Part shown: positions 3-31,157 of the stretch, one piece after another | How positions within the stretch are numbered: position 1 is the first letter of the stretch | How the letters are laid out: the number at the start of each line of letters is the position of its first letter | Source of the DNA: Azonexus sp. | GTDB taxonomy: Bacteria > Pseudomonadota > Gammaproteobacteria > Burkholderiales > Rhodocyclaceae | Reading direction: 5' to 3' | NCBI GenBank assembly: GCA_030824535.1 | Contig: JAVBXO010000396.1 | Location: forward strand, 1 to 32,958 | DNA length: 32,958 bases | Translations under genes and position numbers: made by a program | Notes under the pieces: generated by a model | What the model was told of the DNA's origin: nothing | Seen by the model: only the letters and a program-made list of their open reading frames with translations | The model's database searches: none

Positions 3-3000
3 GCCAGCGGCGTCCTGAGCCTTTATGGCCTGGCCCACGCCCTCGAAAACGGCGATGCCCTTGCGGCGGCAACCTCAGGCATGCAAGCCGTGCAGTTCGG
101 TGCTTCCGCCTACGTGGCCGCCCTGCGCGCCTCGGAAGATGCCCTCCTCAACATCAGCGAGATTCAGGCAGCGGATGCGGTGGCGGATACGCTGGGAGAA
201 GCACTTCCCTACTTGAACCTTGTCAACAGTCTTGCCCACGAAGATTATACTGGAGCAGCAGTCTCTGCTCTCAGCATAGCCGGAGTTCCATATATCGGCT
301 GGGCCTACGCCGCCTACTCCATCATCGACTCCCTCTTCAACAGCGATGCCCCCCCCGATGCCTGGGGCAGTGGTCAGTTCATCTGGGACGGCAACGGCAT
401 CAGCTACCACGTCGTCGGTGAAACCGGTGGCAAGGAAGCCGTCGAGAGTGTCATGAGCAACACGTTGGCCACGCTCAACGCCATGATCGAGCAGGTGCGC
501 CAACAGAACCCCGGCAGCGCATTGGGCATCATTCCCAACCGCCTGCCGACCAGCGGCTACGACACCTCGGGCTACCGCTACACCGACATCGACCCGCTGA
601 GCGGTGCCGAACAGCACCCGGCCTTGCGCTTCGACACCAGCGGCCGCCCTTACAACGCCGAAACCGGCAGCCCCGAGTCTTACCAATCGATCATCGAAGG
701 CATGGTCCGCTCGGCGCTGGCGCGCGGCGCCATCGCCCCGCTGTGGGAAGTGTTGACGGCCAGGCAACAGGCGGATGCCGGTGACCCGAAAGCCGGCCTG
801 AGCGAGGAAGAACGGGCCGGTCGCGACGGGCAATTGGCCGCGCCGATCAGCGGCAGCACGCAAATTTTCCGGCCGGTGGTACTCGATGGCGACGGTGATG
901 GCATCGAAACCACCGATCGTGCCCATGGGGTTGCCTTCGATGTCGATGACTCCGGCTATCTCAAGCAGACCGCCTGGGTCAAGGGCGACGACGCCCTGCT
1001 GGTGCTCGACCGCAACTACAATGGTCAGTTCGACAGCGGGCGGGAACTCTTCGCCAATGGTGCCGTGACGCTTTCCCGGCGCGGTCTGGCCGGCATGGCC
1101 TGGGTCGATGCCAACTACGATGGCAAGCTCAGCGTCGCCGACCCGGTCTGGAATGAACTCAAAGTCTGGCGCGATCTCGATCAGGATGGTGCCCAGGATG
1201 CCGGTGAAGTGCAGGGCCTCGACAGCGTCGGCATTACCGAGCTCAACTACGCCATGGCCAGCTTCACCCGCAACGGCGTCAAGCAACAGATGGCTAGCCC
1301 CGATCTCGAGGCCGACAGCCAGGGCACCCGCGTTAGCGTAGTGCCCGAAGGCATTCTCATGCAGGCCAGCGACAACGCTCAGCTCTCGCTGATCGTCACC
1401 CGCGTCGCCGACCAGACCGCCGTGGAGGCCAACCAGGACGGGATCAGCGGCTACGAGGACGTCGAAATCATCGTCAATTCGCTCGATCTTCTGGCCAATG
1501 ACCAGCCCGGGGGTGCCCTGAGCATCACCGGCTTGGGCAATTTCCGGCATGGCTCGGGTTTCGTTGACGCCAACGGCTTCGTGCATTTCACGCCGGAAGC
1601 AAACTACGCCGGCGATGCGGCCGGGTTTGACTACGTCGCCCAGGATGCCAGCGGTCAGACGGCCACCTCGACGGTTGACGTCAGCTTGCAGAATACCAAT
1701 GACGCCCCCACGCTGGCACAGGTCAACCACGATCCCCGGCCGATCTATGGCTATACGCCGGTAATCTATAACGCTCTCGACGACTCAGGCACCAACATTC
1801 AGTACATCGCTGGCGGCAATCCGATCTATGTGCCCTATGCTATTCAGTACACGACGGTCGGCGAGGGAACGATTACGGCAAACACCATCGACAACCCGCC
1901 ACCCGGGAGATGGGATTACGAGTACCACACCACCCCCCTCGCCTTCGAAGACAGCGGTGCCGGCACGCTCCTGGGGACAGACATCGACGATCCGGCCAGC
2001 TCGCTGAGCTACGAAATCGTCAATCAGCCGCAGTATGGCGCGGTCAGCCTCAATGCCGACGGCTCCTTCCGGTACACCAGCTGGAAAGAACCGGGCGTCG
2101 CCAGCGACCGTATCGTCGTCGATGATCAATACGGCGGCACCAAAGATGGCACGCTCTATACGCAGAACAATCTTCCAGGCATATTCGTTTACCCGACCAC
2201 CGACGTCTTTGAGGTGCGAATCACCGATCCACAAGGCGCCAGCACTCTCCAGTCGATTTCCGTACCGCACTACGGCCCCTATATGCCGCCGACCCCCGAG
2301 GGTGGTGGTGGCGGCAAGCCGGTGGCCGTGGACCTCAGTGGCGACGGCTTCCAGTTCGTCGACGTCAAGGATTCCAACGTCTTCTTCGACGTCAACGACG
2401 ATGGCCGGAAACACCGTACCGCCTGGGTCGGCAAGGATGACGGCCTGCTGGCCTACGACAGCGATGGCGATGGTCAGATCAACCGGGCGGGTGAAATCAG
2501 CTTTACCCGCTACCAGGAAGGCGCTCAGACCGACCTGGAGGGTTTGCGTGGCTTTGACAGCAATGGCGATGCCCGCTTCGATGCTACGGATGACCAATGG
2601 GCCAGATTCGGCGTCTGGCAGGATGCCAACCAGAATGGCATGACTGACACCGGCGAATTCCAGTCGCTCAGCGCGATGGGCATTACTGCGGTCAACCTGT
2701 CCAGCGATGGCAAATTCCAGATCATCAACGGCCAGACCGTGCACGGTATCGGCGGCATGAGCAAGGCCGATGGCAGCACCCTGACGATTGCCGACGTCAC
2801 CCTCGCTTATAGCAACGAGATTCAAGTTCCCCAGGCCGACGGCTCAGTGGCAACCGTCAGCGACTCAGCTTTTTCACCGAGCGGTGAGGAAATCGACGGG
2901 ACCGAAGCTCAGGATCTCATTCTTGGCAAAACCGGCAACAATATTGTCAAGGGCCTGGGTGGCGACGATGTCATCTTCGAGGATGGCGGCAACGACATCG

Positions 3001-5747
3001 TCGATGGCGGCGATGGCAATGACCTGCTATATGCGGGTGCCGATAACGACCTGGTGCTTGGCGGTGCTGGCGACGATGTCGCCTACGCCGGTCCGGGCAA
3101 CGATGTACTGTTTGCCGGCGAGGGTCATGACGCCATTTTTGCTGAAGACGGCAATGATGTCGTGTTCGGTAGCGCAGGCAACGATCTGATTTCCGGCGGC
3201 GCGGGCAACGACGTGCTCTCCGGAGATGACGGCGATGACCAGCTTTACGGCGAAGCCGGCAACGATGCCTTGTTCGGCCGCGACGGCGACGACGAGCTAT
3301 CGGGCATGGACGGCAATGACCGTCTTGATGGCGGCACGGGCAACAACCTGCTGGATGGTGGCACAGGCGCGGACGAAATGCTCGGCGGCGCTGGCGATGA
3401 CCGCTATGTCGTCGATGATGCGGCCGACACGGTGAGCGAATTGCTCGCCGAGGGCAACGATACGATCCAGACGACACTCGATGGCTATACGCTGGGCGCC
3501 AACATCGAAAACCTCGCTCTGGGCGGAGTGAACAACCTGTCCGGCAATGGCAATGAACTCGATAACACGCTGTCCGGCAATTGGGGCAACAACTTCCTGA
3601 TGGGCGGTGCCGGCCAGGACAAGCTGGATGGCAAAACCGGGAGTGACACGCTGGTCGGCGGCATGGGAGACGACATTTATGTCGTCGACAATGCTGACGA
3701 TCAGGTGGTCGAGGCGGCTGACGAAGGTTTGGACACCGTCAAGGCAAGCGTCAGCCATACGCTTGCAGCCAACGTCGAACAGCTCAGCCTGAGCGGCAGC
3801 GCTGCGCTCAATGCCATTGGCAATGAACTGGATAACTTCCTTAACGGCAATGCCGGCAACAACCTGATTGACGGAAAGGCTGGCGTCGATACGATGGCTG
3901 GAGGAGCCGGCGACGATACCTACATGGTGGACAATCAGGACGATAGTGTGACTGAATTCTTCGATGAAGGCATCGACTCGATACTGACTGCAATCAGTTT
4001 CGCCCTGCCGGAAGAGCTCGAGAATCTCACGCTGACCGGCAGCGCCGACATTGACGGCAGCGGTAATGACCTGAACAACCATCTGCTCGGCAACGCTGCG
4101 GCCAATGTCCTGGATGGGGCAACAGGCAACGACGAAATGATCGGCGGTGGCGGCAACGATACCTACGTGGTGGATGATCAGGGCGATAGCGTGACGGAAT
4201 TCTTCGATGAGGGCATCGACTCGGTCCTGGCATCAATCAGTTTCGTCCTGCCAGAACAACTCGAGAACCTCACGCTGACCGGTAGCGCCGACATTGACGG
4301 TACCGGAAACGACTGGGACAACCATCTGCTCGGCAACAATGGAACCAATGTCCTGGATGGCGCCGCCGGCAATGACGAAATGAGGGGCGGTGACGGTCAC
4401 GACACCTATTGCGTCGATAGTTCTGGTGACCTCGTGTCGGAAGCACTTGGCGGCGGTTACGATACCGTACGCAGCACCATCAGCCTGACGATGCCCGACA
4501 ATATCGATGCCCTTCAACTGCTGGGCAAGGACGACATCAATGCCACTGGCAACTCCCTGAGCAATGCAATTGTCGGCAACAGTGGCCGAAACATTATTGA
4601 TGGCGGCAGCGGCTCAGACGCCATGGCGGGCGGCACCGGCGACGACGATTACATTGTCGATAGCCCAAAGGATGCGGTAAGCGAGCCGGCCTTCGGCGGC
4701 ATCGACAGCATCTATGCCAGCACCAACTATGGCCTTCCGGAACACGTCGAAAATCTGGCCCTGCTTGGCAACGCTGACATCAATGCCAGAGGCAACGACC
4801 AGGATAACCGCCTGACAGGCAACACCGGCAACAATGTCATTTACGCTGAGGCCGGGAACGACCAACTCGAGGGTCTGGCCGGGAACGACACCCTGTATGG
4901 CGAAACGGGGAACGATAGGGTGCATGCGGGCGATGGCCGAGACAGGCTTTACGGCGAAAGCGGCGACGATTACCTGCACGGTGGCACCGGCAACGACATA
5001 CTGGATGGCGGCGATGGCATTGACTTCCTGAGCGGCGCCAATGGCCGGGACGTCTTGCGCGACGCATGGGGCAACAACGCCCTTTTCGGTGGCAGGCAAA
5101 ATGATCGGATCGAGGCAGGGGCCGGCAACGACTTCATTGCCGGCGGCAAGCAGGACGATACGATCCAGGCAGGGAGTGGCGCCAACGTCATTGCTTTCAA
5201 CTGGGGCGATGGTCGCGATGTCTTGCTCCCCGACACAGAGGCGGTCAATACGCTTTCCCTGGGCGGGAAAATCGACAAGAAAAATCTTGCGCTGAAAAAA
5301 TCTGGTCAGGATTTGATCCTGTCGATGGGCAAAAGCAGTCAAGTTACACTCAAAAACTGGTACACCTCGGCAAGCAATCAGAATGTCTTCAAACTTCAGC
5401 TTGTCGAAACGCCCCCATCCCGCAACCACGGTCAACACCCGTCAAATGGCTGGAATATCGACAGCTTCGATTTCAAGGCCCTGGTACAAAACTTCGATAC
5501 AGCCCGTGTCAAAAATTCCAGGCACTCACCATGGAACATGATGAATGCCTTACTGGATGCACATCTTGAAAGCAGCGATACCAGCGCACTGGGTGGGGAA
5601 CTGGCGGCGCGCTACGCTGCCGGTGGTGAATCGGCCATCTCGCTCGGCCTCGCCCAGGAAACATTAAAGGATGCCCATTTCGGCAGCCAGACACAGACGG
5701 TGGGCCAGCGACTTGATGCGGCGGTACGCGCTTATCACCTGGCTTAA
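3..5747 (+). CDS. RTX-type calcium-binding exoprotein, 5' end beyond the window
   Basis: Very large secreted protein of the RTX family. The frame is open from the first bases, so the ATG at 81 is internal and the true start lies upstream. Order of parts: an Ala-rich helical start with a hydrophobic stretch (about 243-345); a Ca-binding module rich in DxDxDG loops (about 861-1257); a cadherin-like domain ending in NDAP (about 1419-1712) and a second one (about 1929-2265); a Gly-rich linker; a second copy of the DxDxDG module (about 2316-2703); then RTX nonapeptides and long RTX repeats (2916-5225). A C-terminal region with the pattern of the haemolysin-type calcium-binding related domain follows (about 5238-5405), then an unstructured-looking tail that presumably carries the type I secretion signal. 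The downstream acyltransferase homologue and HlyD support export by a type I system. Whether it is an adhesin, toxin or enzyme cannot be told, because the N-terminal part is missing. Confidence 0.93.
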   Translation, partial: ASGVLSLYGLAHALENGDALAAATSGMQAVQFGASAYVAALRASEDALLNISEIQAADAVADTLGEALPYLNLVNSLAHEDYTGAAVSALSIAGVPYIGWAYAAYSIIDSLFNSDAPPDAWGSGQFIWDGNGISYHVVGETGGKEAVESVMSNTLATLNAMIEQVRQQNPGSALGIIPNRLPTSGYDTSGYRYTDIDPLSGAEQHPALRFDTSGRPYNAETGSPESYQSIIEGMVRSALARGAIAPLWEVLTARQQADAGDPKAGLSEEERAGRDGQLAAPISGSTQIFRPVVLDGDGDGIETTDRAHGVAFDVDDSGYLKQTAWVKGDDALLVLDRNYNGQFDSGRELFANGAVTLSRRGLAGMAWVDANYDGKLSVADPVWNELKVWRDLDQDGAQDAGEVQGLDSVGITELNYAMASFTRNGVKQQMASPDLEADSQGTRVSVVPEGILMQASDNAQLSLIVTRVADQTAVEANQDGISGYEDVEIIVNSLDLLANDQPGGALSITGLGNFRHGSGFVDANGFVHFTPEANYAGDAAGFDYVAQDASGQTATSTVDVSLQNTNDAPTLAQVNHDPRPIYGYTPVIYNALDDSGTNIQYIAGGNPIYVPYAIQYTTVGEGTITANTIDNPPPGRWDYEYHTTPLAFEDSGAGTLLGTDIDDPASSLSYEIVNQPQYGAVSLNADGSFRYTSWKEPGVASDRIVVDDQYGGTKDGTLYTQNNLPGIFVYPTTDVFEVRITDPQGASTLQSISVPHYGPYMPPTPEGGGGGKPVAVDLSGDGFQFVDVKDSNVFFDVNDDGRKHRTAWVGKDDGLLAYDSDGDGQINRAGEISFTRYQEGAQTDLEGLRGFDSNGDARFDATDDQWARFGVWQDANQNGMTDTGEFQSLSAMGITAVNLSSDGKFQIINGQTVHGIGGMSKADGSTLTIADVTLAYSNEIQVPQADGSVATVSDSAFSPSGEEIDGTEAQDLILGKTGNNIVKGLGGDDVIFEDGGNDIVDGGDGNDLLYAGADNDLVLGGAGDDVAYAGPGNDVLFAGEGHDAIFAEDGNDVVFGSAGNDLISGGAGNDVLSGDDGDDQLYGEAGNDALFGRDGDDELSGMDGNDRLDGGTGNNLLDGGTGADEMLGGAGDDRYVVDDAADTVSELLAEGNDTIQTTLDGYTLGANIENLALGGVNNLSGNGNELDNTLSGNWGNNFLMGGAGQDKLDGKTGSDTLVGGMGDDIYVVDNADDQVVEAADEGLDTVKASVSHTLAANVEQLSLSGSAALNAIGNELDNFLNGNAGNNLIDGKAGVDTMAGGAGDDTYMVDNQDDSVTEFFDEGIDSILTAISFALPEELENLTLTGSADIDGSGNDLNNHLLGNAAANVLDGATGNDEMIGGGGNDTYVVDDQGDSVTEFFDEGIDSVLASISFVLPEQLENLTLTGSADIDGTGNDWDNHLLGNNGTNVLDGAAGNDEMRGGDGHDTYCVDSSGDLVSEALGGGYDTVRSTISLTMPDNIDALQLLGKDDINATGNSLSNAIVGNSGRNIIDGGSGSDAMAGGTGDDDYIVDSPKDAVSEPAFGGIDSIYASTNYGLPEHVENLALLGNADINARGNDQDNRLTGNTGNNVIYAEAGNDQLEGLAGNDTLYGETGNDRVHAGDGRDRLYGESGDDYLHGGTGNDILDGGDGIDFLSGANGRDVLRDAWGNNALFGGRQNDRIEAGAGNDFIAGGKQDDTIQAGSGANVIAFNWGDGRDVLLPDTEAVNTLSLGGKIDKKNLALKKSGQDLILSMGKSSQVTLKNWYTSASNQNVFKLQLVETPPSRNHGQHPSNGWNIDSFDFKALVQNFDTARVKNSRHSPWNMMNALLDAHLESSDTSALGGELAARYAAGGESAISLGLAQETLKDAHFGSQTQTVGQRLDAAVRAYHLA
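2916..3347 (+). repeat. First block of RTX nonapeptide repeats
   Basis: Within the RTX gene, about fifteen consecutive GGxGxDxxx-like nonapeptides are encoded, with GGDGNDLLY and GGAGNDVLS as typical units. In this family such units fold into a calcium-bound parallel beta-roll after secretion. Confidence 0.9.
3348..4835 (+). repeat. Six long RTX-type repeats, last four exactly 81 codons
   Basis: Six copies of a unit that starts with one or two nonapeptides, continues with a segment like DDxYVVDxxxDxVxE, then a conserved ENLxLxGxxxxxxxGN segment. Units begin near 3348, 3600, 3864, 4107, 4350 and 4593. The last four are spaced exactly 243 bp. The third and fourth are close to identical over about 150 bp of DNA, which suggests a recent tandem duplication. 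Confidence 0.9.
4836..5225 (+). repeat. Second block of RTX nonapeptide repeats
   Basis: About a dozen further GxxGxDxxx nonapeptides close the beta-roll region before the C-terminal domain. Several are imperfect, such as GGRQNDRIE and GGKQDDTIQ, which is usual at the edge of an RTX block. Confidence 0.87.
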
Positions 5748-6260: not shown

Positions 6261-7631
6261 TTGCGCGTGAACCCCATTACTAAAACACTATCAGGCGATG
6301 TGCTGGACTTTGCACCGGGTCTCCTGTCCATCCAGGAGCGCCCGCCAGCAAAGTTACCGCGTATCGTCCTTTATACGGTCGTTGGCTTGTTTGGCATTCT
6401 GTTGCTCTGGGCTGTCTTCGGCAAACTGGATGTCGTTGCGTCGGCCGAGGGACGACTGGTCCCGCAAACCTACGTGAAAATCGTGCAACCGGCCGAAGCA
6501 GGTATCGTGCAGGCAATTTTGGTCCGCGAAGGACAATCCGTCGAGGCCGGAGAAATCCTGATGCAGATGGATGCAAAAATAGCCGAAGCTGATGCCCGAA
6601 CCATCCGCAACGAGTTCGAATTGAAACGTCTGCAATTACGCCGTATCACTGCCGAATTGACGGGCCGGCCAATACCCACCGAGACCGGGGACGTCCCGGA
6701 GCTATTTGCCCAGATCGCCAGCCAGTATGCCGCGCACCGGCAAACCTACCAGGATGGACTGGCACAGGAGCAGGCCATTCTTGGCAAGAGCCGCCACGAC
6801 CTCCAGGCGGCAGAAGAGCTGGCGCAAAAACTGCGGGAAACGCTCCCGACCTACCGCAAGAGCGCCGCAGCCTTCGAAAAGCTGGGCAAGGACGGCTTCT
6901 ATAGTCCGCTGGCAGTCGAAGAGAAGCAACGCGACCGGATCGAAAAGGAACAGGATCTGCGCGCGCAGGAATCCACCGTCGCCAGCCTGAAATCAACGAT
7001 TACGGCCAGCGAGAAAAAACTCGACCAGATTAGCTCGCATTACCGTAGCGAACTACAGAACGAGCGGGTCGACACTGAATCACAGTTTCGGCGTTTGCGA
7101 GATGAACTGGAAAAGCTTGAGCACAAATCGGGATTACTGGCCTTGCGCGCTCCGCAACGTGGGGTAATCAAGGATTTGGCGACACACACCGTGGGAACAG
7201 TGGTCTCTCCCGGCACAGTCCTGATGTCGCTGGTGCCGTATGACGAACCACTCCTCGCCGAAGTACTGGTAAAAAACGAAGACGTCGGCTTCGTCCACCC
7301 GGATCAGCGGGTCAAACTCAAGCTTGCAGCCTATCCCTTCCAGAAGTACGGCATGATCGATGGCACGGTAATCCATGTCGGGCCGGATGCCGGAGATAGC
7401 TCCGGCATCACCAGCAAGCCAAGCGGAGAAGCGTCTGATACGGCGTCGGCACTCCGTTACAAGGCACTGGTTCATCTGGACCAGCAGCATCTTGACAGCA
7501 ACGGCAAACCTCTGCGCCTTTCGTCGGGCATGCAGGTAATCTCCGAAATCCATCAAGGGCAGAGAACCGTCATGGAATATCTGCTCTCTCCCGTACAGAA
7601 GGCTTGGCAAGAGGCGGGGCGGGAGCGCTAA
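6261..7631 (+). CDS. hlyD: HlyD-family type I secretion adaptor (membrane fusion protein)
   Basis: Periplasmic adaptor that links an inner-membrane ABC exporter to a TolC-like outer-membrane channel. The 456 residues show a short cytosolic N-terminus, one membrane helix (about 34-53), a first lipoyl half (about 60-105, with VQPAEAGIVQAILVREGQSV), a long charged coiled-coil hairpin (about 110-295), the second lipoyl half beginning LRAPQRGVIKDL, a beta-barrel part, and the family C-terminus LSSGMQV..I..GQRTVMEYLLSP. The start is uncertain: TTG at 6261 or GTG at 6267, neither with a clear Shine-Dalgarno sequence. It begins 9 bases after the acyltransferase homologue, so the two are probably cotranscribed. 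The ABC exporter partner is not seen downstream and may lie left of the window. Confidence 0.92.
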   Translation: MRVNPITKTLSGDVLDFAPGLLSIQERPPAKLPRIVLYTVVGLFGILLLWAVFGKLDVVASAEGRLVPQTYVKIVQPAEAGIVQAILVREGQSVEAGEILMQMDAKIAEADARTIRNEFELKRLQLRRITAELTGRPIPTETGDVPELFAQIASQYAAHRQTYQDGLAQEQAILGKSRHDLQAAEELAQKLRETLPTYRKSAAAFEKLGKDGFYSPLAVEEKQRDRIEKEQDLRAQESTVASLKSTITASEKKLDQISSHYRSELQNERVDTESQFRRLRDELEKLEHKSGLLALRAPQRGVIKDLATHTVGTVVSPGTVLMSLVPYDEPLLAEVLVKNEDVGFVHPDQRVKLKLAAYPFQKYGMIDGTVIHVGPDAGDSSGITSKPSGEASDTASALRYKALVHLDQQHLDSNGKPLRLSSGMQVISEIHQGQRTVMEYLLSPVQKAWQEAGRER

Positions 7632-18006: not shown

Positions 18007-18963
18007 ATGACCACCAGCAACGCTATTACCAAGAAGCCCACGTTCCAGGAAATCATCCTGCGCCTGCAGCAATACTGGAGCGACAAGGGTTGCGCCCTGC
18101 TTCAGCCCTACGACATGGAAGTCGGTGCCGGCACCAGCCACACCGCCACCTTCCTCCGCGCCATCGGCCCCGAGCCATGGAAAGCCGCCTACGTGCAGCC
18201 TTCGCGCCGTCCCAAGGATGGCCGTTATGGCGAAAACCCGAACCGCATGCAGCACTACTACCAGTATCAGGTGGTGTTGAAGCCGGCCCCTGACAACATC
18301 CTCGAGCTCTACCTCGGCTCGCTCGAAGCCCTCGGTTTTGATCTCAAGAAAAACGACGTGCGTTTCGTCGAAGACGACTGGGAAAACCCGACCCTGGGTG
18401 CCTGGGGTCTGGGCTGGGAAGTCTGGATGAACGGCATGGAAGTCACGCAGTTCACCTACTTCCAGCAAGTCGGCGGCATCGACTGCAAGCCGATCACCGG
18501 CGAAATCACCTACGGTCTGGAACGCCTGGCGATGTACCTGCAAGGCGTCGAAAACGTCTATGACCTGACCTGGACGGAAGGGCTGACCTACGGCGACGTG
18601 TATCACCAGAACGAAGTCGAGCAATCGACCTACAACTTCGAACATTCCGACGCTGACTTCCTGTTCACCGCCTTCGGTGCGCACGAAAAGCAGGCGCAGC
18701 ACCTGATGGGCGCACAACTGGCGCTGCCGGCCTACGAGCAAGTGCTCAAGGCCGCGCACACCTTCAACCTGCTCGATGCGCGTGGCGCGATTTCCGTCAC
18801 CGAGCGCGCTGCTTACATTGGCCGCATCCGCAACCTCGCCCGCGCCGTCGCCCAAGCCTACCTCGACTCCCGCGCCCGCCTCGGCTTCCCGATGGCCCCG
18901 CGTGAATGGGCTGCCGAAGTGCTGGCCAAGCTCGAAGAACAGAACGCCAAGAAAGCGGCCTGA
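18007..18963 (+). CDS. glyQ: Glycine--tRNA ligase alpha subunit
   Basis: Catalytic subunit of the bacterial alpha2beta2 glycyl-tRNA synthetase. 318 residues with nearly invariant family segments: [56 protein letters not shown] and [11 protein letters not shown]. The ATG at 18007 gives the expected N-terminus; the GTG three codons earlier is an alternative. In most betaproteobacteria glyS follows directly. Here a two-gene cassette (18978-22078) separates them, starting 14 bases after the glyQ stop. Confidence 0.98.
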
Positions 18964-18977
18964 GCGAGGAACAAGCC

Positions 18978-20318
18978 ATGCTGACCGCCAAAGATCTCAG
19001 GGACTTCCAGAAAGTTCTGCGCCAGAGTGACCACCCGCTGAATGTTGGTGACGCTTTTCACGTCCCGAACCTGCACGGCGACAAGCAGTACGACATGATT
19101 GAGCGCCTTTTCCGGGAGATCGAAAGTTGCGACGGCAGCGGCTTGTATTACTTCACCGGCCAGCGCGGCACCGGCAAAAGTACCGAATTGCGACGGCTGG
19201 AAACCCGGCTAAACGGAGAAGGCTATCGCTGTATTCGTTTCGATGCACTGCACTATCTCAACGACACGCAGCCAATTGATGCACACCTGCTGATGTTGAT
19301 GGTTGCGGCAGGTGTCGACGATTGGCTCACCGAAAAATATCCAGAAAAAGACGGGGGCGCCGAAAGCCTTCTTAGCCGCTTTCAAGATTGGCTAAAAACC
19401 AAGGTCGAACTCGAAAAGGTTGATGTCAGCTTGGGTGCTGGCCCCGGCCTGCCCAGCACACGCTTGCAATTCAATCTCAAACCACAGCAGGAAACCCTGA
19501 GCAGCAAGATTCGTGGCATGAGCGACCGCCGTGAATTTCACGAAAGCATCATCAAATTCATCGCCGAAATGTGCCAGTGGCTTCAGAAGCGTGAGCAGCG
19601 GCGCATCGTCATCGTTGTCGATTCGCTGGAAAATCTACGTGGTAACCCGCTCGCCGAGCAGGATCAAGAGCGCATATTCGGCAGCGTACTCGATGTCTTT
19701 GCCGATCACCTGGCCTTGATTCGCGTACCGGACGTGCACATGGTGTATTCGGTTCCACCCTACCTCTGCTTCCTGGCCAACATCACACCACAGGTGTCAT
19801 GGACGCCGCTGGCCTCAGTACGCGTCTGTGAAAAGCCGGAAATCGCCCGACGTAAGCCGCGTGAAATCGGCCTGGCGGTGATGCGCGACCTACTCGAACG
19901 CCGACTGCCGCGCTGGCGGGAAGTCCTCAGCCAGGAGGCGCTCGACCGTCTCTCCCTGCTTTCCGGTGGCGACCTACGCCAATTCATCATCCGCATCCTG
20001 ACGGATGTGTTCTACCAGGCGCAATTTGCACTGGAACGCCTGCCCCTGGCCAAGGACGATAGCATCATCGATGAGGTAGCCGCCGCCTGTAGCAGAGAAA
20101 TGGAACGCCTCACCGTGCGCAGCGAATGGCCTTTGCTCAAAACCATTGCCAACGAAAACAACATCGTTGCCGAGAACCGCAGTCAGATAAAAATATTGGC
20201 GCACCTACTCGACACCAAGGTCATTCTCAATTACCGCAACGGTGGCGAATGGTATGACCTGCATCCAACCCTGTGGGCCACCCTTGACGCCTACACTAGC
20301 CCTGCTCAGTCCACCTGA
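18978..20318 (+). CDS. P-loop ATPase (AAA/STAND-like) of unassigned family, inserted between glyQ and glyS
   Basis: 446 residues. Walker A is GQRGTGKS (61-68), preceded by a strand LYYFT; Walker B is RIVIVVDSLENL with Asp215. After the ATPase core come helical segments and a C-terminal piece (about 380-440, ending NGGEWYDLHPTLWATL) that looks like a winged helix, a layout common in STAND/ORC-type NTPases. No signal peptide or membrane helix. The ATG at 18978 is chosen because AGGA lies seven bases upstream; 72 bases of open frame before it overlap glyQ. The TPR protein gene follows after 5 bases, so the pair is surely cotranscribed. No specific function is recognised. A conflict or signalling role is only inferred from the ATPase-TPR pairing. 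Confidence 0.85.
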   Translation: MLTAKDLRDFQKVLRQSDHPLNVGDAFHVPNLHGDKQYDMIERLFREIESCDGSGLYYFTGQRGTGKSTELRRLETRLNGEGYRCIRFDALHYLNDTQPIDAHLLMLMVAAGVDDWLTEKYPEKDGGAESLLSRFQDWLKTKVELEKVDVSLGAGPGLPSTRLQFNLKPQQETLSSKIRGMSDRREFHESIIKFIAEMCQWLQKREQRRIVIVVDSLENLRGNPLAEQDQERIFGSVLDVFADHLALIRVPDVHMVYSVPPYLCFLANITPQVSWTPLASVRVCEKPEIARRKPREIGLAVMRDLLERRLPRWREVLSQEALDRLSLLSGGDLRQFIIRILTDVFYQAQFALERLPLAKDDSIIDEVAAACSREMERLTVRSEWPLLKTIANENNIVAENRSQIKILAHLLDTKVILNYRNGGEWYDLHPTLWATLDAYTSPAQST

Positions 20319-20323
20319 CGGAT

Positions 20324-22078
20324 ATGCCCGAACTGCGGTTTGAACTTGATGCCTCGCTGAGCAGTGATTTTGAAAATCACTGGCAGCGGCTGCGCATCTT
20401 GCTTGAAGAGCCACAGCTATTTGCCATCCAGTTCGTTTTCAGCAGCAATTACGAATTACACAGCGCGCTGCTGCGCCGTCTGCAGCAGACGGCACTCAGT
20501 CTTGCGGTGGACTGCCTGGAATTGCCTAAAACCAGCAGTGCGGAACTGAGCGATACCGGCACTTCGACCGCGCCAAGCACCGCGCACCAACTCGCCGAAG
20601 CCATCACCCGCCATTGCCTGGCGCGCATCTTCCCAGCGGCACCACCGCACACCCGCCTGCTGCTGCTCGACCTGCATCAGGCCCTGCCCGTGGCCCTCGC
20701 TGCGCTGCTCGCCGAGCCTGTTGATGGCGAGCGGCCAGCCATCCTGCATCAAGCACTGGCCGATAGTCGTGCCCTGCTGCTCAGTCGCCTCAACGAGCGC
20801 CGCGCCCAATTGTCTGCATTTGGCCCGCTGCTCATTTTATTGCCCGAAGACTGGACAAAACCCGCTGCCGAATACGCACCGGATTTGTGGACGCAGCGCC
20901 TCAGTTCGCTCTACCTGCCTCCACCCATTCCCTGCGCAGAAGGCAGCCCAAGCAGCGAGCCTGCACAAGGCGTGCTCCCCCCTGAAGAAGCCCCGCGCGC
21001 CGCCGAACGCAACATCCTCGCCCGCTGGCAGGAGGCGCTACGCAGCGGGCAAACCCAGCGCCTGCCGGTAAGCGACGGCTGGATTGCCGCTGAAACCAGT
21101 GCCAAACTGGGCAACGGCCAGGAAGCCGAAGACCTCGCCGCACTGTGCCTGCGCCTGGCCTACGAACGCGGCAGCCTACGCGAGCAGATGGGCAGTCAAA
21201 ATATTCTCGGCGACATGCGCCTGCGCCGCGGTCGCATTGAACAGGCGCGCGAAGCCTATACGGTTGCCCTGAGCATCGCCCAGGAATTGGTCAGCAAGGA
21301 GCCGGACAACACCGAGCGGCAGCGCGACCTGTCGGTCAGTTACGACAAGGTGGCCGACATCCTGCGCCGCAGCGACCCCGCTAGCGCCCTAGCAAACTAC
21401 CAAGCCAGCCTGAATATTCGCCAAGACCTGGCCCGCCAGGAACCTGACAACACCCAGTGGCAGCGTAACCTGTCGGTCAGTTACGAAAAGGTGGCCGACA
21501 TCCTGCGCCGCAGCGACCCTGCCGCCGCCCTCGATAGCTGTCAGGCCAGCCTCAAAATCAGCCAAGACCTCGCCCAGCGTGAGCCGGACAACACCGAGTG
21601 GCAGCGCGACCTGTCGGTCAGTTACGAGAAGGTGGCCGACATCCTGCGACCCAGCGACCCTGCCGCCGCCTTCGCCAATTACGAAGCCAGCCTCAAAATC
21701 CGCCAAGACCTCGCCCGGCGCGAGCCGGACAATACCGAGTGGCAGCGCGACCTGTCGGTCAGTTACCACAAGGTAGCCGACATCCTGCGCCGCAGCGACC
21801 CCACCGCCGCCCTCGACAACTATCAGGCCAGCCTGAGCATTTGCCTTAACCTGGCGCAGCGCGAACCAGACAACCTCGAATTGCAAACTGACCAGATCAT
21901 CAGCCACGTCAAAATTGCAACACTGCATCCAACCGTACCCACCACCGAAGCCCGCGCCCATTTGCAGGCTGCCTTGCAGCTTGCCCGCCAGCTAGAGCGC
22001 GCCCAATTACTGACCCATGACCAGGCCGTGTGGCCTGATGATATCCAACGGCGGCTCGACGCCTTGCCGTCGGCCTGA
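20324..22078 (+). CDS. TPR-repeat protein with degenerate P-loop-like N-terminal domain, partner of the upstream ATPase
   Basis: 584 residues. Residues 1-200 alternate strands and helices as in a P-loop fold: a strand-loop-helix at 32-54 (FAIQFVFSSNYELHSALLRR) lacking GKT/S, a Walker-B-like LLLLDLHQ (112-118), then LNERRAQL and APDLWTQR. A Pro-rich linker (about 199-225) leads to helical repeats. One TPR-like unit occurs at about 285-325, then four 47-residue units (326-513) of the form EPDNxxWQRDLSVSYxKVADILRRSDPxxAL, then a decayed fifth. TPRs mediate protein binding, so an adaptor or sensor for the ATPase is plausible, but nothing enzymatic is seen. The gene starts 5 bases after the ATPase and ends 34 bases before glyS. 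Confidence 0.85.
   Translation: MPELRFELDASLSSDFENHWQRLRILLEEPQLFAIQFVFSSNYELHSALLRRLQQTALSLAVDCLELPKTSSAELSDTGTSTAPSTAHQLAEAITRHCLARIFPAAPPHTRLLLLDLHQALPVALAALLAEPVDGERPAILHQALADSRALLLSRLNERRAQLSAFGPLLILLPEDWTKPAAEYAPDLWTQRLSSLYLPPPIPCAEGSPSSEPAQGVLPPEEAPRAAERNILARWQEALRSGQTQRLPVSDGWIAAETSAKLGNGQEAEDLAALCLRLAYERGSLREQMGSQNILGDMRLRRGRIEQAREAYTVALSIAQELVSKEPDNTERQRDLSVSYDKVADILRRSDPASALANYQASLNIRQDLARQEPDNTQWQRNLSVSYEKVADILRRSDPAAALDSCQASLKISQDLAQREPDNTEWQRDLSVSYEKVADILRPSDPAAAFANYEASLKIRQDLARREPDNTEWQRDLSVSYHKVADILRRSDPTAALDNYQASLSICLNLAQREPDNLELQTDQIISHVKIATLHPTVPTTEARAHLQAALQLARQLERAQLLTHDQAVWPDDIQRRLDALPSA
21299..21862 (+). repeat. Four tandem 141-bp units encoding long TPRs
   Basis: Units begin at 21299, 21440, 21581 and 21722, exactly 141 bp (47 codons) apart, with a decayed fifth from 21863. 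DNA identity between units is high, including long runs such as the part encoding DLSVSY. This points to recent expansion or gene conversion. Confidence 0.95.
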
Positions 22079-22112: not shown

Positions 22113-24248
22113 ATGAACACCTCCGTGAATAAAAATCTCCTCGTCGAACTCTTCGTTGAAGAACTGCCGCCCAAGGCGCTGAAGAAGCTGGGTGAAGCCT
22201 TTGCTGCTGCCTTGGTCAATTCGCTGAAAAATGCCGGTTTGGCGACGTCGACCGCAGAAGTCAGCGCTTACGCCTCGCCGCGCCGTCTGGCTGCGCATGT
22301 CACCGATGTCGCCGCCGTGGCCGCTGACAAGCCGGTGGTGCAGAAGCTGATGCCGGTCGCTGTCGGCCTCGACGCCAATGGCCATGCCACGCCGGCACTG
22401 TTGAAGAAGCTCGGCGCCCTCGGTGCCGATGCTTCCATCGTGCCGTCGCTGCGCCGCGAGAACGACGGCAAGGCCGACATTCTGTTTTACGACAGCCTGG
22501 CCAAGGGTGCGACGCTGGCTGAAGGCCTGCAAAAGGCCGTTGAAGCCGCACTCGCCGCCTTGCCGATTCCCAAGGTCATGACTTACCAGTTGCAGGATGG
22601 CTGGAGCAGCGTCAATTTTGTGCGTCCGGCGCATGGTCTGGTCGCGCTGCACGGCAGTGAAGTCGTGCCGGTTGCTGTGCTCGGCCTGACTTCCGGCAAT
22701 GCCACCAAGGGCCATCGCTTTGAAGCCGCCGTTGATCCGGTGATCATCGCCGACGCCGACAGCTACGCCGCAACCATGCTCAAGGATGGCTCGGTGATTG
22801 CATCGTTTGCCGAGCGCCGCGCCGAAATCGCCCGCCAGCTCGAAGCCGCTGCCGCCCAGGCCGGTGCAAATGGCTCCGCTCCGCTGCGGCCAATTGAAGA
22901 CGACGCCCTGCTCGACGAAGTCACGGCGCTGGTCGAGCGTCCGAATGTGCTGATCGGTCAGTTTGAAGAAGAATTCCTCGCCGTGCCGCAGGAATGCCTG
23001 ATTCTGACCATGAAGGCCAACCAGAAGTATTTCCCGCTGTTGGACGCGGCCGGCAAGCTGACCAACAAGTTCCTCGTCGTCAGCAACATCAGTCCGGAAG
23101 ATGCTTCGGCGGTCATCGGCGGCAACGAGCGCGTCGTGCGGCCGCGTCTGGCCGATGCCAAGTTCTTCTTCGACCAGGATCGCAAGAAGTCGCTGGAATC
23201 GCGTGTTATCGGCCTGTCCAAGGTCGTTTATCACAACAAGCTGGGCACCCAGGGCGAGCGCATGCAGCGCGTCGCGGCGATTGCCCGCGCCATCGGCCAG
23301 CAGCTCGCAGGTGAAGCGCTGGCGCTGCACGCCGAACAGGCCGCCGTGCTGGCCAAGGCCGACCTGCTAACCGACATGGTCGGCGAGTTCCCCGAGCTGC
23401 AAGGCATCATGGGCCGCTACTACGCCCAGCACGACGGCCTGAATGCCGACGTCGCCGACGCCATCGAAGATCATTACAAGCCGCGCTTTGCTGGCGACAG
23501 CCTGCCGCGCGGCATGGTTGGCACGGTCGTCGCGCTGGCCGACAAGCTGGAAACCCTGGTCGGCATGTTTGGCATCGGCCAGATTCCGACCGGCGACCGC
23601 GACCCGTTTGCGCTGCGCCGCCATGCACTGGGCGTGATTCGCATGCTCGCCGAGGGCAACCTCGATCTGCCGCTGAACGAACTGCTCAATGTCGCCGCTG
23701 GCGCCTTTGCTGCGGTCGACGGCTTCAAACCGGCCGAATCCGCGCTCGCCGACTTCATCTACGACCGCCTCGCCGGCAATCTGCGCGAACAGGGTTACTC
23801 GGCGCAGGAAGTCGATGCCGTGGTGTCGCAACGGCCGCAACGCCTGGGCGACATCCCCAAGCGCCTCGCCGCCGTGCGTGCTTTCTCGGCGCTGCCGGAA
23901 GCTGCCGCGCTGGCCGCCGCCAACAAGCGCGTCGGCAACATCCTGAAGAAGGTCGAAAACGCCGTTGAGGCCGTGGTCGACAACGCGCTGCTCAAGGAAG
24001 CCGCCGAAATCGCCCTGCACGATGCGCTGGTCGAAGTCGTGCCGCAAGCCGATGCCGCCTTCGTCACCGGTGACTACAACGAGTCGCTGATGGCACTGGC
24101 GGCGCTGCGCGCACCGGTCGATGCCTTCTTTGATGGCGTCATGGTCAATGCCGACGATCCGGCGCTGCGCGCCAACCGTCTCGGCCTGCTGGCCAAGCTG
24201 CACGCGGCCATGAACCGCGTTGCCGACCTGTCGAAGCTGTCCGCCTAA
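22113..24248 (+). CDS. glyS: Glycine--tRNA ligase beta subunit
   Basis: tRNA-binding subunit of the tetrameric glycyl-tRNA synthetase. 711 residues, close to the family norm. The N-terminus LLVELFVEELPPKALKKL, the segment VYHNKLGTQGERM, LADKLETLVGMFGIGQIPTGDRDPFALRR and the DALR-like C-terminus are diagnostic. It begins 34 bases after the TPR gene and so depends either on read-through of the inserted cassette or on a promoter inside it; no convincing promoter was seen directly upstream. Confidence 0.98.
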   Translation: MNTSVNKNLLVELFVEELPPKALKKLGEAFAAALVNSLKNAGLATSTAEVSAYASPRRLAAHVTDVAAVAADKPVVQKLMPVAVGLDANGHATPALLKKLGALGADASIVPSLRRENDGKADILFYDSLAKGATLAEGLQKAVEAALAALPIPKVMTYQLQDGWSSVNFVRPAHGLVALHGSEVVPVAVLGLTSGNATKGHRFEAAVDPVIIADADSYAATMLKDGSVIASFAERRAEIARQLEAAAAQAGANGSAPLRPIEDDALLDEVTALVERPNVLIGQFEEEFLAVPQECLILTMKANQKYFPLLDAAGKLTNKFLVVSNISPEDASAVIGGNERVVRPRLADAKFFFDQDRKKSLESRVIGLSKVVYHNKLGTQGERMQRVAAIARAIGQQLAGEALALHAEQAAVLAKADLLTDMVGEFPELQGIMGRYYAQHDGLNADVADAIEDHYKPRFAGDSLPRGMVGTVVALADKLETLVGMFGIGQIPTGDRDPFALRRHALGVIRMLAEGNLDLPLNELLNVAAGAFAAVDGFKPAESALADFIYDRLAGNLREQGYSAQEVDAVVSQRPQRLGDIPKRLAAVRAFSALPEAAALAAANKRVGNILKKVENAVEAVVDNALLKEAAEIALHDALVEVVPQADAAFVTGDYNESLMALAALRAPVDAFFDGVMVNADDPALRANRLGLLAKLHAAMNRVADLSKLSA

Positions 24249-26767: not shown

Positions 26768-29700
26768 CTACTCGCCGCGAATCAGCGCGACCAGGTCTTC
26801 GGTCGAGGGCAGCGCTGATGCATCGCCGTCGTCGAGGATGCTGTCGGCCAGCGCCCGTTTGTCGTGGTGTAGATCGACGATGCGCTCTTCGATACTGCCT
26901 TTGCTAACCAGTCGATAAACGGTGACTGGCCGCAGTTGGCCGATGCGGTGGGCGCGGCCCATGGCCTGGTCTTCGGCGGCCGGATTCCACCAGGGGTCGG
27001 TAATCACCACGTAGTCGGCGGCGGTCAGGTTGAGGCCGAAACCACCGGCTTTCAGACTGATCAGGAACAGGTCGCTTTCACCGGCCTGGAAGGCGGCAAC
27101 ACGCTTGCTGCGTTCGGCGGCGGGCGTCGCGCCATCGAGATATTGATAGCTGATGCCAGCCGCGTCGAGCGGCGCGCGCAGGATTTGCAGGAAATCGACG
27201 AACTGGCTGAAAACCAGGGTCTTGTGGCCGTTGGCCGTGAGTTCGGCGGCCAGTTCGGCAAAGGCCTGGACCTTGGCCCCGGCGATGCCGAATTCCGGGC
27301 TGGCCAGGCGGGGATCGCAGGCGGCACGGCGTAGCTTGGTCAGTTGCGCCAGGATGTTGAAACGGGCCTGACCGGCCTGAGCGCCGCTGTCGTTGAGCAT
27401 GCTGACATCGCTGATCGCCTGCCGGCGCAAAGCTTCATAGTGGGCGGCTTCGGCAGCTTCGGGGGTAACGGAAAGAATCAGTTCGGTGCGCGGCGGCAGA
27501 TCCTGCAACACCTGGCCTTTGGTGCGGCGCATCACGAAGGGGCCGATCAGGCGTTTCAGCACGTGTTGCGCGTCGCGGTCGCGGTTGCGTTCAATCGGGC
27601 CGGCGAAGCGTTCGTTGAAACGACCGATGGTGCCAAGCAGGCCGGGATTGACGAAGCGCATGATCGACCACAGTTCAGCCAGGCGGTTTTCCACCGGCGT
27701 GCCGGACAAGGCCAGGCGGAAATCGGCCGGCAGGTCAAAAACGGCCTGCGAGCGTTTGGCCGTGGCATTTTTGATCGCCTGCGCCTCGTCGGCGACCAGG
27801 GTGTGCCATTGGCGCCCCGCGAAACGTTCCTGCGCCAGTTGCAACAGGGTATAGGAGACGATCAGCACGTCCTGCGCGCCGGCGTTGTCGATCAACTGCT
27901 CGCGCTCGGCGTCGCTGGCCTCGCTATAGATGCGAGCGTTCAGGCTGGGTGCGAAGCGCAGCGCTTCGGCCAGCCAGTTGCCGCACACCGAGGTCGGGGC
28001 GATGACCAGCGCCGGACCGCCCTTGGCCCGTTCGAGCATGACGGCCAGCGCCTGCAAGGTCTTGCCCAGGCCCATGTCGTCAGCCAGGCAGCCGCCCAGG
28101 CCAGCAGCAGCGAGGCGCATGGCCCACTGGTAGCCCTCTTCCTGATAGGGGCGCAAGTCGGCCTGCAGGGATTTCGGCAATTTCGGCACCAGCGCTTGCG
28201 CCGCGCGCAGACGCTCGATGGCTTTACGAAAATCGCTGCCGGCACTCAGCTCAGTGCCATCGAGCACTTCGTCGAGCCAGGCGGCAGCGATTTGCGGCAC
28301 CTTGCTGCCGTGTTTGTCGACTTCGGCGACGGCGGCGAGATCGAGCAATTTCTGTTTCAGCGCGCGGGTCAGCGCCGCGTAGACGCCATCGCCCATCGGG
28401 ATGAAACGGCTCTTGTCGCGGGCAGCGGCGAGCAGGGTTTCCAGCTGCACGACCAGACCTTCATCGAGCCCGGCCTGGCCGGAGACGCGGAACCAGTCGC
28501 GTTCCTTGCTGACGGTGATGCCGAGCTTGCCGGCATCGATGCTGATGACGCGGACGCTTTTACCCTTCGGCCAATCGACGGCGGCGATGGCGGCCAGACC
28601 GGGCAGTGCCTCAACCAGGCCGAGTGCCAGTTCCGGGTCGTCGATCAGCCACTCGCTGCTTTCCGCATCGTCAAGAAAGGGGAAGGCATCAAGTACCGCC
28701 TCCAGATGTTTCTTTTCGGTGGCCAGCTGGCGCTCGGTGCCTAAAGTCTCGCCACCTATCGCCGCCATCAGGCGAACACGCCCACTGCCCACCGGCAAGC
28801 GTGGGCCATCAGCGCCCAGCGGCGCGGCCACCAGGCGCAGCGACAGCGACTCACCCACCGGTGCCAGCTCGGCGCGCAAGCGCGATTCGCAGGCCACCTG
28901 CCGCGAGGCCTGCGCCGCATCGGCCTGCACCTGGAAATGCCCGGCCAGCGCCTGCAAGGTCTTGTCGAGCTCGGCCTGCACGCCCTCGGCATTGGCCGGC
29001 ACCGCGAAACGTCCGGACACCAGTTGCGCGGCACGTCGTTGCGCCACCGTGTAGCGCACCAGCCGGACGCGCTGCGGCCCGTCCGGCAGCAGGGTGATCA
29101 GACGTAGCGCCTCGGCGTCGCGCTTTTCTTCGGCATCGTAGTAATAACTATCCCCCGGCTCTGTACGCAGGGGAGGATTGATCTGCATGACAATCTTGTC
29201 ACCCTGGCGGACGACCTCGAATTCGGGCGGCGTTTCGACGAGATCGACCAACAGCGCCGGTGCGCTATCGAGGGCGACCGCCGGGTGGCCGACCAGCGCG
29301 ACGATGGCATTGGCCAGATCGAAATTGAAACGCTTGGCGTAATTGCGCTCGGCGCGCAGGCAACGGGCCAGTTTGACATCACCGGGCGATAGCGCCTGAT
29401 CGGCAGCCAAACGACTCAAGGGCAGGGCCTTCGGCGTGCTCCAGCCACTGCGACCGCGCTTCTGTTCAAAAGGCTTGATGGCCAGCAGTTCACCCTGCTT
29501 GCCGATGCAGAGCGTCCACAGGATGCGGGTCTTGTCGGCGCCATCCTTGGCTTTCACGCCTGGCACAGTTTCGCCAGCCAGTTCCTGGAGCGCGCCGAGC
29601 ACCTCACGCCAGCGCTCGCCTTTGCCGGCAACGAAAAAGCCGGCCGGGGGGTCGCCGCCGGCGAGGACGGCTTCAGCGCCATCCAGCATACCGAGCAGCC

Positions 29701-30970
29701 TGGTGAAACCGCAGTCCTGCAGACGACAACGGAGGTTATCCAGAAACGCCTTCTTGTCGTCTTCTTTGACCTTGCCCAGTGCCTCGGGGCCGACCCAGGC
29801 GGCCAGCATCAGCTTCCAGAAAAGCGCCAGCGTATGGCGCTCGTAACCGGACTTGTGCAGCACAAAAGCGCTCGCCACCAGCGGCGCATTGCCCAGGCGC
29901 GCATCGATGGCATTGACCCAGCGCCCCCAGTCGTCGTGCGCGCTGGGCGTGCGCGTGCCGGCTTCGCCGACGCAAAACTTGCGCGCCAGTTCGAGATGTT
30001 TCGGGCCGCCTTGCGCCAGCAGGGCGAGCGGGTAAAACCAGGCGATCGATTCCGGGAACACCTGTTTGCGAACACCCATCTCGGCCTGGCCGCGTTTGAG
30101 GGCGGCTTCGAAGGCCTGTTGGCCGCTGGCCCACTGGCCATCGGCAATCAGCGCCGCTGCCCGCAAGGCGTCGCAAGCAGCGACATCGATACCGGCCAGG
30201 GCTTTTTCCAGCACGGCCGAGTCGCCGCATTGCACGGCGAAATCAGCCAGGGCCAGGCGCAGATACGACACCAGGCTTGCCGGCTGGGTCGTCGATTGCG
30301 CCTTGGCCCAATCGACGACCGGCAGCAATTTGCTTGACCAGAATTTGCAGACCAAGACGGTGGCCCGGCTAGCCAAGTCGTTTTGCCAGTAAAGGTCGAC
30401 ACGCTGGAAGCTGTCGGCATCGAAAGGCAGCAGGACGGCGTAGGCCGCCAGTTCTCCCCAATCCCCGCCCTGCTTGATTAGATTGACGACCGGCGTGAGT
30501 TCTTCCCGACTGCTGCCGGCCAGCAACATCGCGCGCAGCAGGGCGATGGCGCTCGTCTGGTTGCCGCTAAAGCTGTAGTGGCGCAACCGCTGCAAGTCGA
30601 AGCCATAAAAGCGGCAAATCAGGTCGACCAGTTCGCGGCCTTCCATGAGCTCAAACCATTGCCGATAAAGCGCAATACGCAGCGTATCAGCCAGCTGAAA
30701 ATAGCCGGGGCGTTGTACATGCTCCTCAAGCAGCTGTTTGCCCATCAGTTCATCGAACGCGGTTTTCACCTGTTCAAGGGTGAAATTGCGTCCGGCCGAG
30801 GGTTTGAACGCCAGCACGGGCAGCAGCTTGTGCAGATCATTGCGGGTGAAGTAAGACCACAACAGGGCGCCAGCCAGGGCGACTTTATGCGTCTCGGCGC
30901 TGAGTCCCTGTTGGTCGAGTTTGCCGAAGGCGCCTTCGGGCGGCAGCGTATTCAAAAGATCAAGGGCCAT
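26768..30970 (-). CDS. SNF2-family DEAD/DEAH-box helicase with large N-terminal region
   Basis: 1400 residues. The C-terminal third is a SNF2 ATPase: LRPYQEEGYQWAM (about 940), DDMGLGKTLQ (about 965), APTSVCGNWLAEA, DEAQAIKN (about 1060), SGTPVENRLAELWS, then the helicase C lobe with LVFSQFVDFLQ (about 1250), SLKAGGFGLNL and QAMGRAHRIGQ (about 1340). Such enzymes move along DNA or displace bound protein; the target here is unknown. Residues 1-900 show no catalytic motif that I recognise and look mostly helical in the first half. The start at 30970 (MALDLLNTLPPEG) is preferred; an ATG at 31048 would add 26 residues. No methylase, nuclease or other defence partner adjoins it. Confidence 0.92.
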   Translation of the reverse strand: MALDLLNTLPPEGAFGKLDQQGLSAETHKVALAGALLWSYFTRNDLHKLLPVLAFKPSAGRNFTLEQVKTAFDELMGKQLLEEHVQRPGYFQLADTLRIALYRQWFELMEGRELVDLICRFYGFDLQRLRHYSFSGNQTSAIALLRAMLLAGSSREELTPVVNLIKQGGDWGELAAYAVLLPFDADSFQRVDLYWQNDLASRATVLVCKFWSSKLLPVVDWAKAQSTTQPASLVSYLRLALADFAVQCGDSAVLEKALAGIDVAACDALRAAALIADGQWASGQQAFEAALKRGQAEMGVRKQVFPESIAWFYPLALLAQGGPKHLELARKFCVGEAGTRTPSAHDDWGRWVNAIDARLGNAPLVASAFVLHKSGYERHTLALFWKLMLAAWVGPEALGKVKEDDKKAFLDNLRCRLQDCGFTRLLGMLDGAEAVLAGGDPPAGFFVAGKGERWREVLGALQELAGETVPGVKAKDGADKTRILWTLCIGKQGELLAIKPFEQKRGRSGWSTPKALPLSRLAADQALSPGDVKLARCLRAERNYAKRFNFDLANAIVALVGHPAVALDSAPALLVDLVETPPEFEVVRQGDKIVMQINPPLRTEPGDSYYYDAEEKRDAEALRLITLLPDGPQRVRLVRYTVAQRRAAQLVSGRFAVPANAEGVQAELDKTLQALAGHFQVQADAAQASRQVACESRLRAELAPVGESLSLRLVAAPLGADGPRLPVGSGRVRLMAAIGGETLGTERQLATEKKHLEAVLDAFPFLDDAESSEWLIDDPELALGLVEALPGLAAIAAVDWPKGKSVRVISIDAGKLGITVSKERDWFRVSGQAGLDEGLVVQLETLLAAARDKSRFIPMGDGVYAALTRALKQKLLDLAAVAEVDKHGSKVPQIAAAWLDEVLDGTELSAGSDFRKAIERLRAAQALVPKLPKSLQADLRPYQEEGYQWAMRLAAAGLGGCLADDMGLGKTLQALAVMLERAKGGPALVIAPTSVCGNWLAEALRFAPSLNARIYSEASDAEREQLIDNAGAQDVLIVSYTLLQLAQERFAGRQWHTLVADEAQAIKNATAKRSQAVFDLPADFRLALSGTPVENRLAELWSIMRFVNPGLLGTIGRFNERFAGPIERNRDRDAQHVLKRLIGPFVMRRTKGQVLQDLPPRTELILSVTPEAAEAAHYEALRRQAISDVSMLNDSGAQAGQARFNILAQLTKLRRAACDPRLASPEFGIAGAKVQAFAELAAELTANGHKTLVFSQFVDFLQILRAPLDAAGISYQYLDGATPAAERSKRVAAFQAGESDLFLISLKAGGFGLNLTAADYVVITDPWWNPAAEDQAMGRAHRIGQLRPVTVYRLVSKGSIEERIVDLHHDKRALADSILDDGDASALPSTEDLVALIRGE

Positions 30971-31157
30971 AGAGATTCTATCGTTCGTAATTCCTGGGTA
31001 CAGGCCAGGCCCATGTTGAAAGGCATCCAAAATGGTGTTGCACAACATCAGTAGATGTCAATAATTACCGAGGAATCGGAACCAGCACCGACAAGGATCG
31101 AACGGATCCTGCGCGATTGAAGCCGGGCAAGACAGCACAGACCGCTCCCGGCGGCTT

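Follow-up and report, generated by a model that had tools for sequence, protein, structure and literature searches.

Among the systems described so far, the nearest kind to the locus considered here, compared by description only, is the two-gene nSTAND2 system (Kaur et al. 2021, PMC8195603, Figure 6C), in which, according to the section that presents it, both proteins are STAND-like and possess a conserved arginine finger, and which is predicted to be a mobile counter-invader system. More generally, conflict systems as set out in the relevant portions of PMC7159879, PMC8195603, and PMC10907252 keep one core unchanged and exchange the effectors or sensors joined to it. Here, we describe two genes, encoding an ATPase (P0001) and its partner (P0002), that lie between glyQ and glyS in a stretch of 32,958 nt from Azonexus sp. 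(assembly GCA_030824535.1, contig JAVBXO010000396.1, forward strand), the whole of which will be called the window; the source assembly comprises 451 contigs and is 88% complete. Our preferred reading, held with somewhat more confidence than doubt, is that the pair is a two-gene STAND-type conflict module, probably directed against invaders, which was acquired from outside and lives in a core operon. More tentatively, and with doubt now slightly outweighing confidence, it may belong to a family, so far undescribed, of immune switches of a split STAND design (an active ATPase plus a pseudo-ATPase, with exchangeable sensors and effectors) for which junctions in essential or core biosynthetic operons form a distinct niche, several subfamilies occurring at hom-thrC and others at glyQ-glyS, greA, metG, pnp, and further genes.

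Comparison of related genomes indicates that the pair is an acquisition at the window glyQ-glyS site and not an ancestral feature. All four genes are on the + strand, with 14 bp between glyQ and the ATPase gene, 5 bp between the ATPase and partner genes, and 34 bp between the partner gene and glyS, and both the open reading frames (ORFs) and the spacers agree with those of a first-pass annotation of the window. That annotation had also taken glyQ and glyS to be normally adjacent, and this holds for the genus. In a sample of 60 genomes, glyQ was matched in 55 and glyS on the same contig in 54, which form the measurable set; the gap between domain edges is 94–217 bp in 51 of these, which rules out an ancestral glyQ-X-Y-glyS order, the arrangement that the annotation had itself held to tell against its interpretation. 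Large gaps occur in the remaining three, namely the window (3263 bp), G011 (3408 bp), and G013 (1874 bp). Fourteen relatives without a large insert were fetched, and glyS starts 1–2 nt past the glyQ stop in 12 of them, with longer spacers in two. The first six codons of the window glyS are unlike this empty-site form, similarity beginning at codon 7 in 13 of the 14. The G+C content at third codon positions (GC3) is 67% in the ATPase gene versus 80% in glyQ and 78% in glyS.

The same ATPase-partner pair occupies the same site in G011 (locus L007), a second species. Since the junction sequences of the two genomes are alike on both sides, and their common glyS start differs from the empty-site form, it is simplest to assume a single insertion. 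In alignment with G011, the window has a nucleotide identity of 88–94% over glyQ, 67–76% over the ATPase gene, 80–90% over most of the partner gene, and 76–89% over glyS, and the drop over the ATPase gene suggests that it was either swapped or is faster-evolving. The first 40 partner residues are only 50% identical between the window (18978-20350) and L007, before identity recovers to 80–90%; it is as if the ATPase and the start of the partner had been exchanged, or were co-evolving, together. In G013, another species of the genus (L047; G013:C114, 3684-5464), the gap holds two genes unrelated to the pair, by eye an NHL-repeat lipoprotein and a YdjM-type membrane hydrolase, and the junction has thus been used at least twice in the genus. 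The end of glyQ and the end of the partner gene in the window have 8 bp in common. Over 13 loci, no terminal repeats or target duplications are shared by the insert ends (mean shared suffix 3.3 nt vs. 2.9 nt for crossed pairs), in keeping with the absence of att-like remnants remarked on earlier.

P0001 has matches in 3 of the 60 genomes of the genus, with a distant match only in G046, and in 15 of 297 genomes of the taxonomic family; an ATPase profile matched 4 of 300 genomes of the order at E 1e-15, a count that takes in the genome of the window itself. A scan of a genome collection gave no match with the P0001 sequence alone; with a 14-sequence alignment as the query, it gave at least 583 candidate stretches, of which at least 389 were confirmed by tblastn and 80 loci were kept. 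These 80 loci range across beta- and gammaproteobacteria, Thermodesulfobacteriota, Myxococcota, Acidobacteriota, and Planctomycetota. Among 72,556 plasmid records, seven match, all at less than 60% identity (Nostoc, Acaryochloris, and Acidisarcina). The window's genome possesses a second ATPase, 33% identical to the first, with its own partner bearing about 11 near-identical TPRs (L008; G000:C44, 2919-6663), and this pair sits, by eye, behind an acetoacetyl-CoA synthetase-like gene. In-frame stops are present in some ATPase copies (L018 in G077; L142 and L147 in G597), and decayed family members therefore seem to exist.

On the evidence of its predicted structure, P0001 is an AAA+/STAND-type ATPase. 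Its Pfam match is AAA_22 (28.8 bits, cut-off 27), and its AlphaFold2 (AF2) model (predicted local distance difference test, pLDDT, 91.8; predicted template modelling score, pTM, 0.92) comprises an AAA+ core followed by a helical and winged-helix-like segment, with Foldseek/VIA matches to ORC/Cdc6, SSO1545, and CED-4. The model contains the winged-helix-like tail that the annotation had suspected, with helices at residues 381–393 and 401–412 and strands at 416–420 and 424–428. Further fold neighbors are TnsC, PABY2304, and RdrA, and also Apaf-1 and plant NLRs. A Walker A motif (Table 1) is kept in 79 of the 80 family ATPase ORFs, the exception (L076) being a 244-residue piece near a contig end, and R309 and R334 are invariant or near-invariant in the 79-sequence alignment.

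The N-terminal domain of the partner has no Pfam match. The annotation had seen in it a degenerate nucleoside triphosphatase (NTPase)-like domain, and the predicted model agrees, having a P-loop-like order without a Walker A motif; the VIA structure comparison of P0002 covered residues 222–582. Residues N157, R160, D187, and W189 are invariant in 64 sequences, and R160 and R192 are invariant or near-invariant arginines. The pseudo-NTPase motif was found in 72 of 74 usable partner ORFs, none of these 72 having a Walker A pattern. The partner gene follows the ATPase gene directly, and in 60 of 74 its start overlaps the ATPase stop or is no more than 10 bp away from it (starts chosen by script). 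Over 64 loci, ATPase and partner distances are correlated (Mantel r 0.76, with 0 of 2000 permutations as high), host relatedness contributing to the value, as would be expected of interacting or merely co-inherited proteins. In the partners of L033, L036, L037, and L039, TPR units that are almost the same follow one another in long arrays, which suggests rapid expansion or contraction of a sensor arm.

Beyond this shared domain, the ends of the partner vary. Pfam finds TPR_12 in 62 of 75 partners. Ten were scanned singly, picked for their unusual look (one, L124, is not a partner), and six of the ten carry TIR, SIR2, or NACHT, that is, effector or NLR-type domains: TIR, NACHT, and FGE-sulfatase in L106; SIR2, NACHT, and FGE in L141; SIR2, nSTAND5, and TPR in L082; TIR in L140, together with a NACHT match that falls narrowly below the cut-off; TIR in L117; and NACHT in L118. 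The partner on an Acaryochloris plasmid (L012) ends in WD40 repeats, and those of L130 and L131 are of the TPR kind. Neither GT4 nor HEPN is among the 25 most frequent Pfam families of the 75 partners, nor among the matches listed for the ten scanned singly.

Residence in core operons recurs across the family, a habit that the annotation had not noticed. A core gene directly upstream was verified by search in 29 of the 80 loci, the other 51 being cut by contig ends or unassigned individually, and the 29 are a raw neighborhood count. The homoserine dehydrogenase gene hom lies directly upstream on the same strand in 17 loci, of which L083 and L096 show only the end of hom at a contig start; thrC is the next gene in all 13 where the contig continues, and it overlaps the partner stop by 4 nt in seven of these. 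The identities of hom and thrC rest on NCBIfam for one locus and on tblastn. A third conserved component was considered and rejected, the recurrent upstream gene having proved to be hom itself. In four loci greA is upstream with carB before it; metG, pnp, dxs, ahcY, rsmB, aceE, and pgi (the last below its curated cut-off) are upstream in one locus each (7/80); and in one, the Gallionella metagenome-assembled genome L062, the pair lies between glyQ and glyS, with one small gene separating glyQ from the ATPase gene. A quick tree of 81 ATPase sequences was built with the Shimodaira–Hasegawa-like approximate likelihood ratio test (SH-aLRT) as its only support, and it drew long-row warnings, including for L075 and the group of L126, L127, and L137. 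On this tree the glyQ-glyS copies (the window, G011, and L062) form one branch with a support of 99. The hom-thrC label requires 7 changes, each imposed by starred branches, where shuffled labels average 15.7; it is thus clustered, yet the site was occupied or left several times, and judged by eye at least four kinds of partner occupy it.

The hom-thrC junction was also surveyed across the order, in the 85 genomes among the matches listed for both genes (from 96 hom and 93 thrC rows), leaving out genomes listed for one gene only and G374, G466, and G480, in which the two are on different contigs. The gap is at most 250 bp in 71 of the 85, 250–700 bp in three, and more than 700 bp in 11, none of which has the pair family at E 1e-15. 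In G535, where hom and thrC are again on different contigs, the pair is directly behind hom, on what its length shows to be the contig of L075. Six of the 11 were fetched, and their gaps hold other genes: by eye, an AAA ATPase and DUF4276-like pair in G591 (L153, 231-1999) and a PIN toxin gene in G459 (L154, 566-970). From these contents, hom-thrC may receive insertions of conflict genes more generally.

Sporadic presence, lower GC3 of the ATPase gene, variable ends, and the occurrence of TIR and SIR2 all speak for a conflict module, as do the switches of cell death or immunity (CED-4, Apaf-1, plant NLRs, and RdrA) that are among the fold neighbors of P0001. The annotation had likened the pair to an NTPase-plus-repeat conflict module, which fits in so far as the pair has no housekeeping match, is not ancestral, includes a degenerate NTPase-like fold, and has relatives with TIR, SIR2, or NACHT ends; the search for a housekeeping family among Pfam, NCBIfam, and PADLOC gave no match to one, and most relatives lack the pair. 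We found no description of this pair in the literature beyond the papers cited here, in a search largely without subscription papers.

Several results weigh against our preferred reading. PADLOC gives no confident match to P0001, which has short local matches to PDC-S20 (E 0.002) and mad8 (E 0.0068), and none to P0002; Pfam, NCBIfam, and PADLOC recognize no effector domain in the window pair. The annotation had proposed to look for the pair next to defense genes. The 105 nearest ORFs of 63 loci (picked by length and cut at 400 residues, some being likely spurious antisense ORFs) match 59 PADLOC families, among the matches listed none by more than two ORFs, and these are partly housekeeping look-alikes such as RmuC, so the usual "defense island" support is missing. 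The replication and transposition AAA+ proteins TnsC and ORC/Cdc6 fit the P0001 model at least as well as the immune switches do. Homology between the two NTPase-like domains, of the ATPase and of the partner, is not significant by profile comparison (hhalign probability 4.4%). No relative was found in phage records or in viral contigs, where 41 stretches fit the pattern and none encodes one; an origin in a phage or virus was rejected on the same ground.

As far as gene order and motifs can tell, the genes form a unit, and one of them encodes an ATPase of the active type; from there we infer a physical complex, sensing, killing, expression from the host operon, and an anti-phage function. The ATPase would be the switch, assembling with the partner's N-terminal domain that lacks a Walker A motif, and nucleotide binding or hydrolysis would set the resting state. 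A signal from an invader or from damage would bind the TPR superhelix of the partner and release the complex into an active oligomer. In the cousins, TIR, SIR2, or NACHT on the same partner domain would then kill the cell or starve it by loss of NAD; for the TPR-only copy in the window, the output would have to be another protein or the complex itself. The location between glyQ and glyS would provide steady expression from the host promoter.

The best surviving alternative, though an unlikely one, is that the pair serves signaling or a regulated response in bacteria with complex lifestyles, responding, for example, to envelope or developmental signals and not to invaders. STAND, TPR, WD40, and NACHT proteins serve signaling too, and the family occurs in Myxococcota, Planctomycetota, Acidobacteriota, and several proteobacterial groups; however, sporadic presence, lower GC3, variable ends, and TIR and SIR2 domains are more typical of conflict genes. 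Less probable still is a selfish passenger, a pair without host function for which core-operon junctions are safe, transcribed sites that are hard to lose. The many core operons occupied and the copies with in-frame stops would suit it, as would insert ends that, where tested, lack shared terminal repeats, but a Walker A motif kept in 79 of 80 ATPase ORFs and a partner motif kept in 72 of 74 argue for selection for function. We give the least credence, by a shade, to a regulator or assembly chaperone of the host operon, which would help make or tune glycyl-tRNA synthetase here and threonine, methionine, or other amino-acid enzymes elsewhere, because although many of the places occupied belong to amino-acid synthesis or translation (glyQ/glyS, hom/thrC, and metG) and an ATPase with TPRs is a chaperone-like pairing, glyQS does without a large insert in 51 of 54 genomes of the genus, other hosts are pnp, dxs, pgi, aceE, and ahcY, branches of the ATPase tree contain hom-thrC, greA, and other sites side by side, and the cousins carry TIR and SIR2.

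Many searches for immune genes rely on clustering with known defense genes or mobile elements, and these would miss a family whose members sit singly in core operons, hom-thrC and glyQ-glyS among them. If our reading of the pair as a conflict module is true, core operons are worth searching for immune systems besides defense islands and prophages, with core-operon junctions as a simple rule for finding more members. This division of labor, in which one protein has the ATP site and the other joins the sensor or effector to an ATPase-like domain without Walker A, would be a tractable model of STAND switch control, and as the same partner domain is joined to TPR, TIR, SIR2, NACHT, or WD40, sensor and effector should be separable by experiment.

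Table 1. Positions in the window of the pair, its predicted domains and motifs, and the two host genes.
Feature	Coordinates	Strand	Basis
glyQ, glycyl-tRNA synthetase alpha, upstream host gene	18007..18963	+	PF02091 E 1.2e-150; ATG 18007, stop 18961-18963
ATPase gene P0001, 446 amino acids, predicted AAA+/STAND-type P-loop ATPase	18978..20318	+	ATG 18978, stop 20316-20318
Walker A GQRGTGKS, residues 61-68	19158..19181	+	G61, G64, G66, K67 invariant, 79 aligned sequences
Walker B strand ending in D215	19605..19622	+	D215, E218 invariant in 79-sequence alignment
Winged-helix-like C-terminal segment ending in W-x-D-x-H-P motif	20118..20291	+	AF2 model; W425, P430 invariant, D427 >90%
Partner gene P0002, 584 amino acids	20324..22078	+	ATG 20324, stop 22076-22078
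Putative pseudo-NTPase domain without Walker A, N-terminal, about residues 14-200	20363..20923	+	P-loop-like helix/strand alternation in predicted model; conserved residues
TPR superhelix, about residues 222-580	20987..22063	+	
Tandem 141-bp repeats, 3.8 copies, encoding 47-residue TPR units	21297..21834	+	Tandem Repeats Finder (TRF) score 768
glyS, glycyl-tRNA synthetase beta, downstream host gene	22113..24248	+	PF02092 E 5.5e-187 at 22137-23825; ATG 22113

Elsewhere in the window, a giant ORF with calcium-binding RTX-type repeats (81-5747; NCBIfam matches all below cut-offs) is followed further along by a gene for an HlyD-type secretion adaptor (6261-7631), and the ORF looks like one for a type I secreted surface protein. 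A large SNF2-type helicase is encoded at 26768-31048 on the − strand; its best NCBIfam match is the SCO1167 helicase, with ZorD weaker and all matches below cut-off.

Set against known systems, P0001 is about 12–13% identical to the SSO1545/PABY2304 archaeal ATPase fold and to the ORC/Cdc6-TnsC AAA+ proteins, and its Pfam ATPase_2 match (E 0.058) is below the cut-off. RADAR was considered and rejected, P0001 being only fold-similar to RdrA and the pair having no deaminase match that could stand for RdrB. The single-protein antiviral STAND proteins characterized in the pertinent part of PMC10907252, which we take to be the Avs kind, combine a STAND switch, a TPR-type sensor, and an effector in one polypeptide, whereas here there are two, with the ATP site and the sensor on different proteins. 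The iSTAND/VMAP ternary systems (Kaur et al. 2020, PMC7159879), in the account given of them there, likewise have an inactive STAND component, an ATPase partner, and TIR or peptidase ends, but their core is a MoxR ATPase with a vWA protein; a MoxR-vWA ternary system was rejected for the window, as P0001 and P0002 have no MoxR or vWA match and the adjoining genes are glyQ and glyS. Like the nSTAND2 systems in the description in PMC8195603, the pair is a two-gene operon in which one set of NTP-binding motifs is intact and the other eroded, the eroded protein having variable ends. The ends published there are mostly GT4 or HEPN, whereas those of the pair family are TPR, TIR, SIR2, NACHT, FGE, and WD40, and the nSTAND2 section of that paper mentions no habit of residing in core operons, which is frequent in the family described here.

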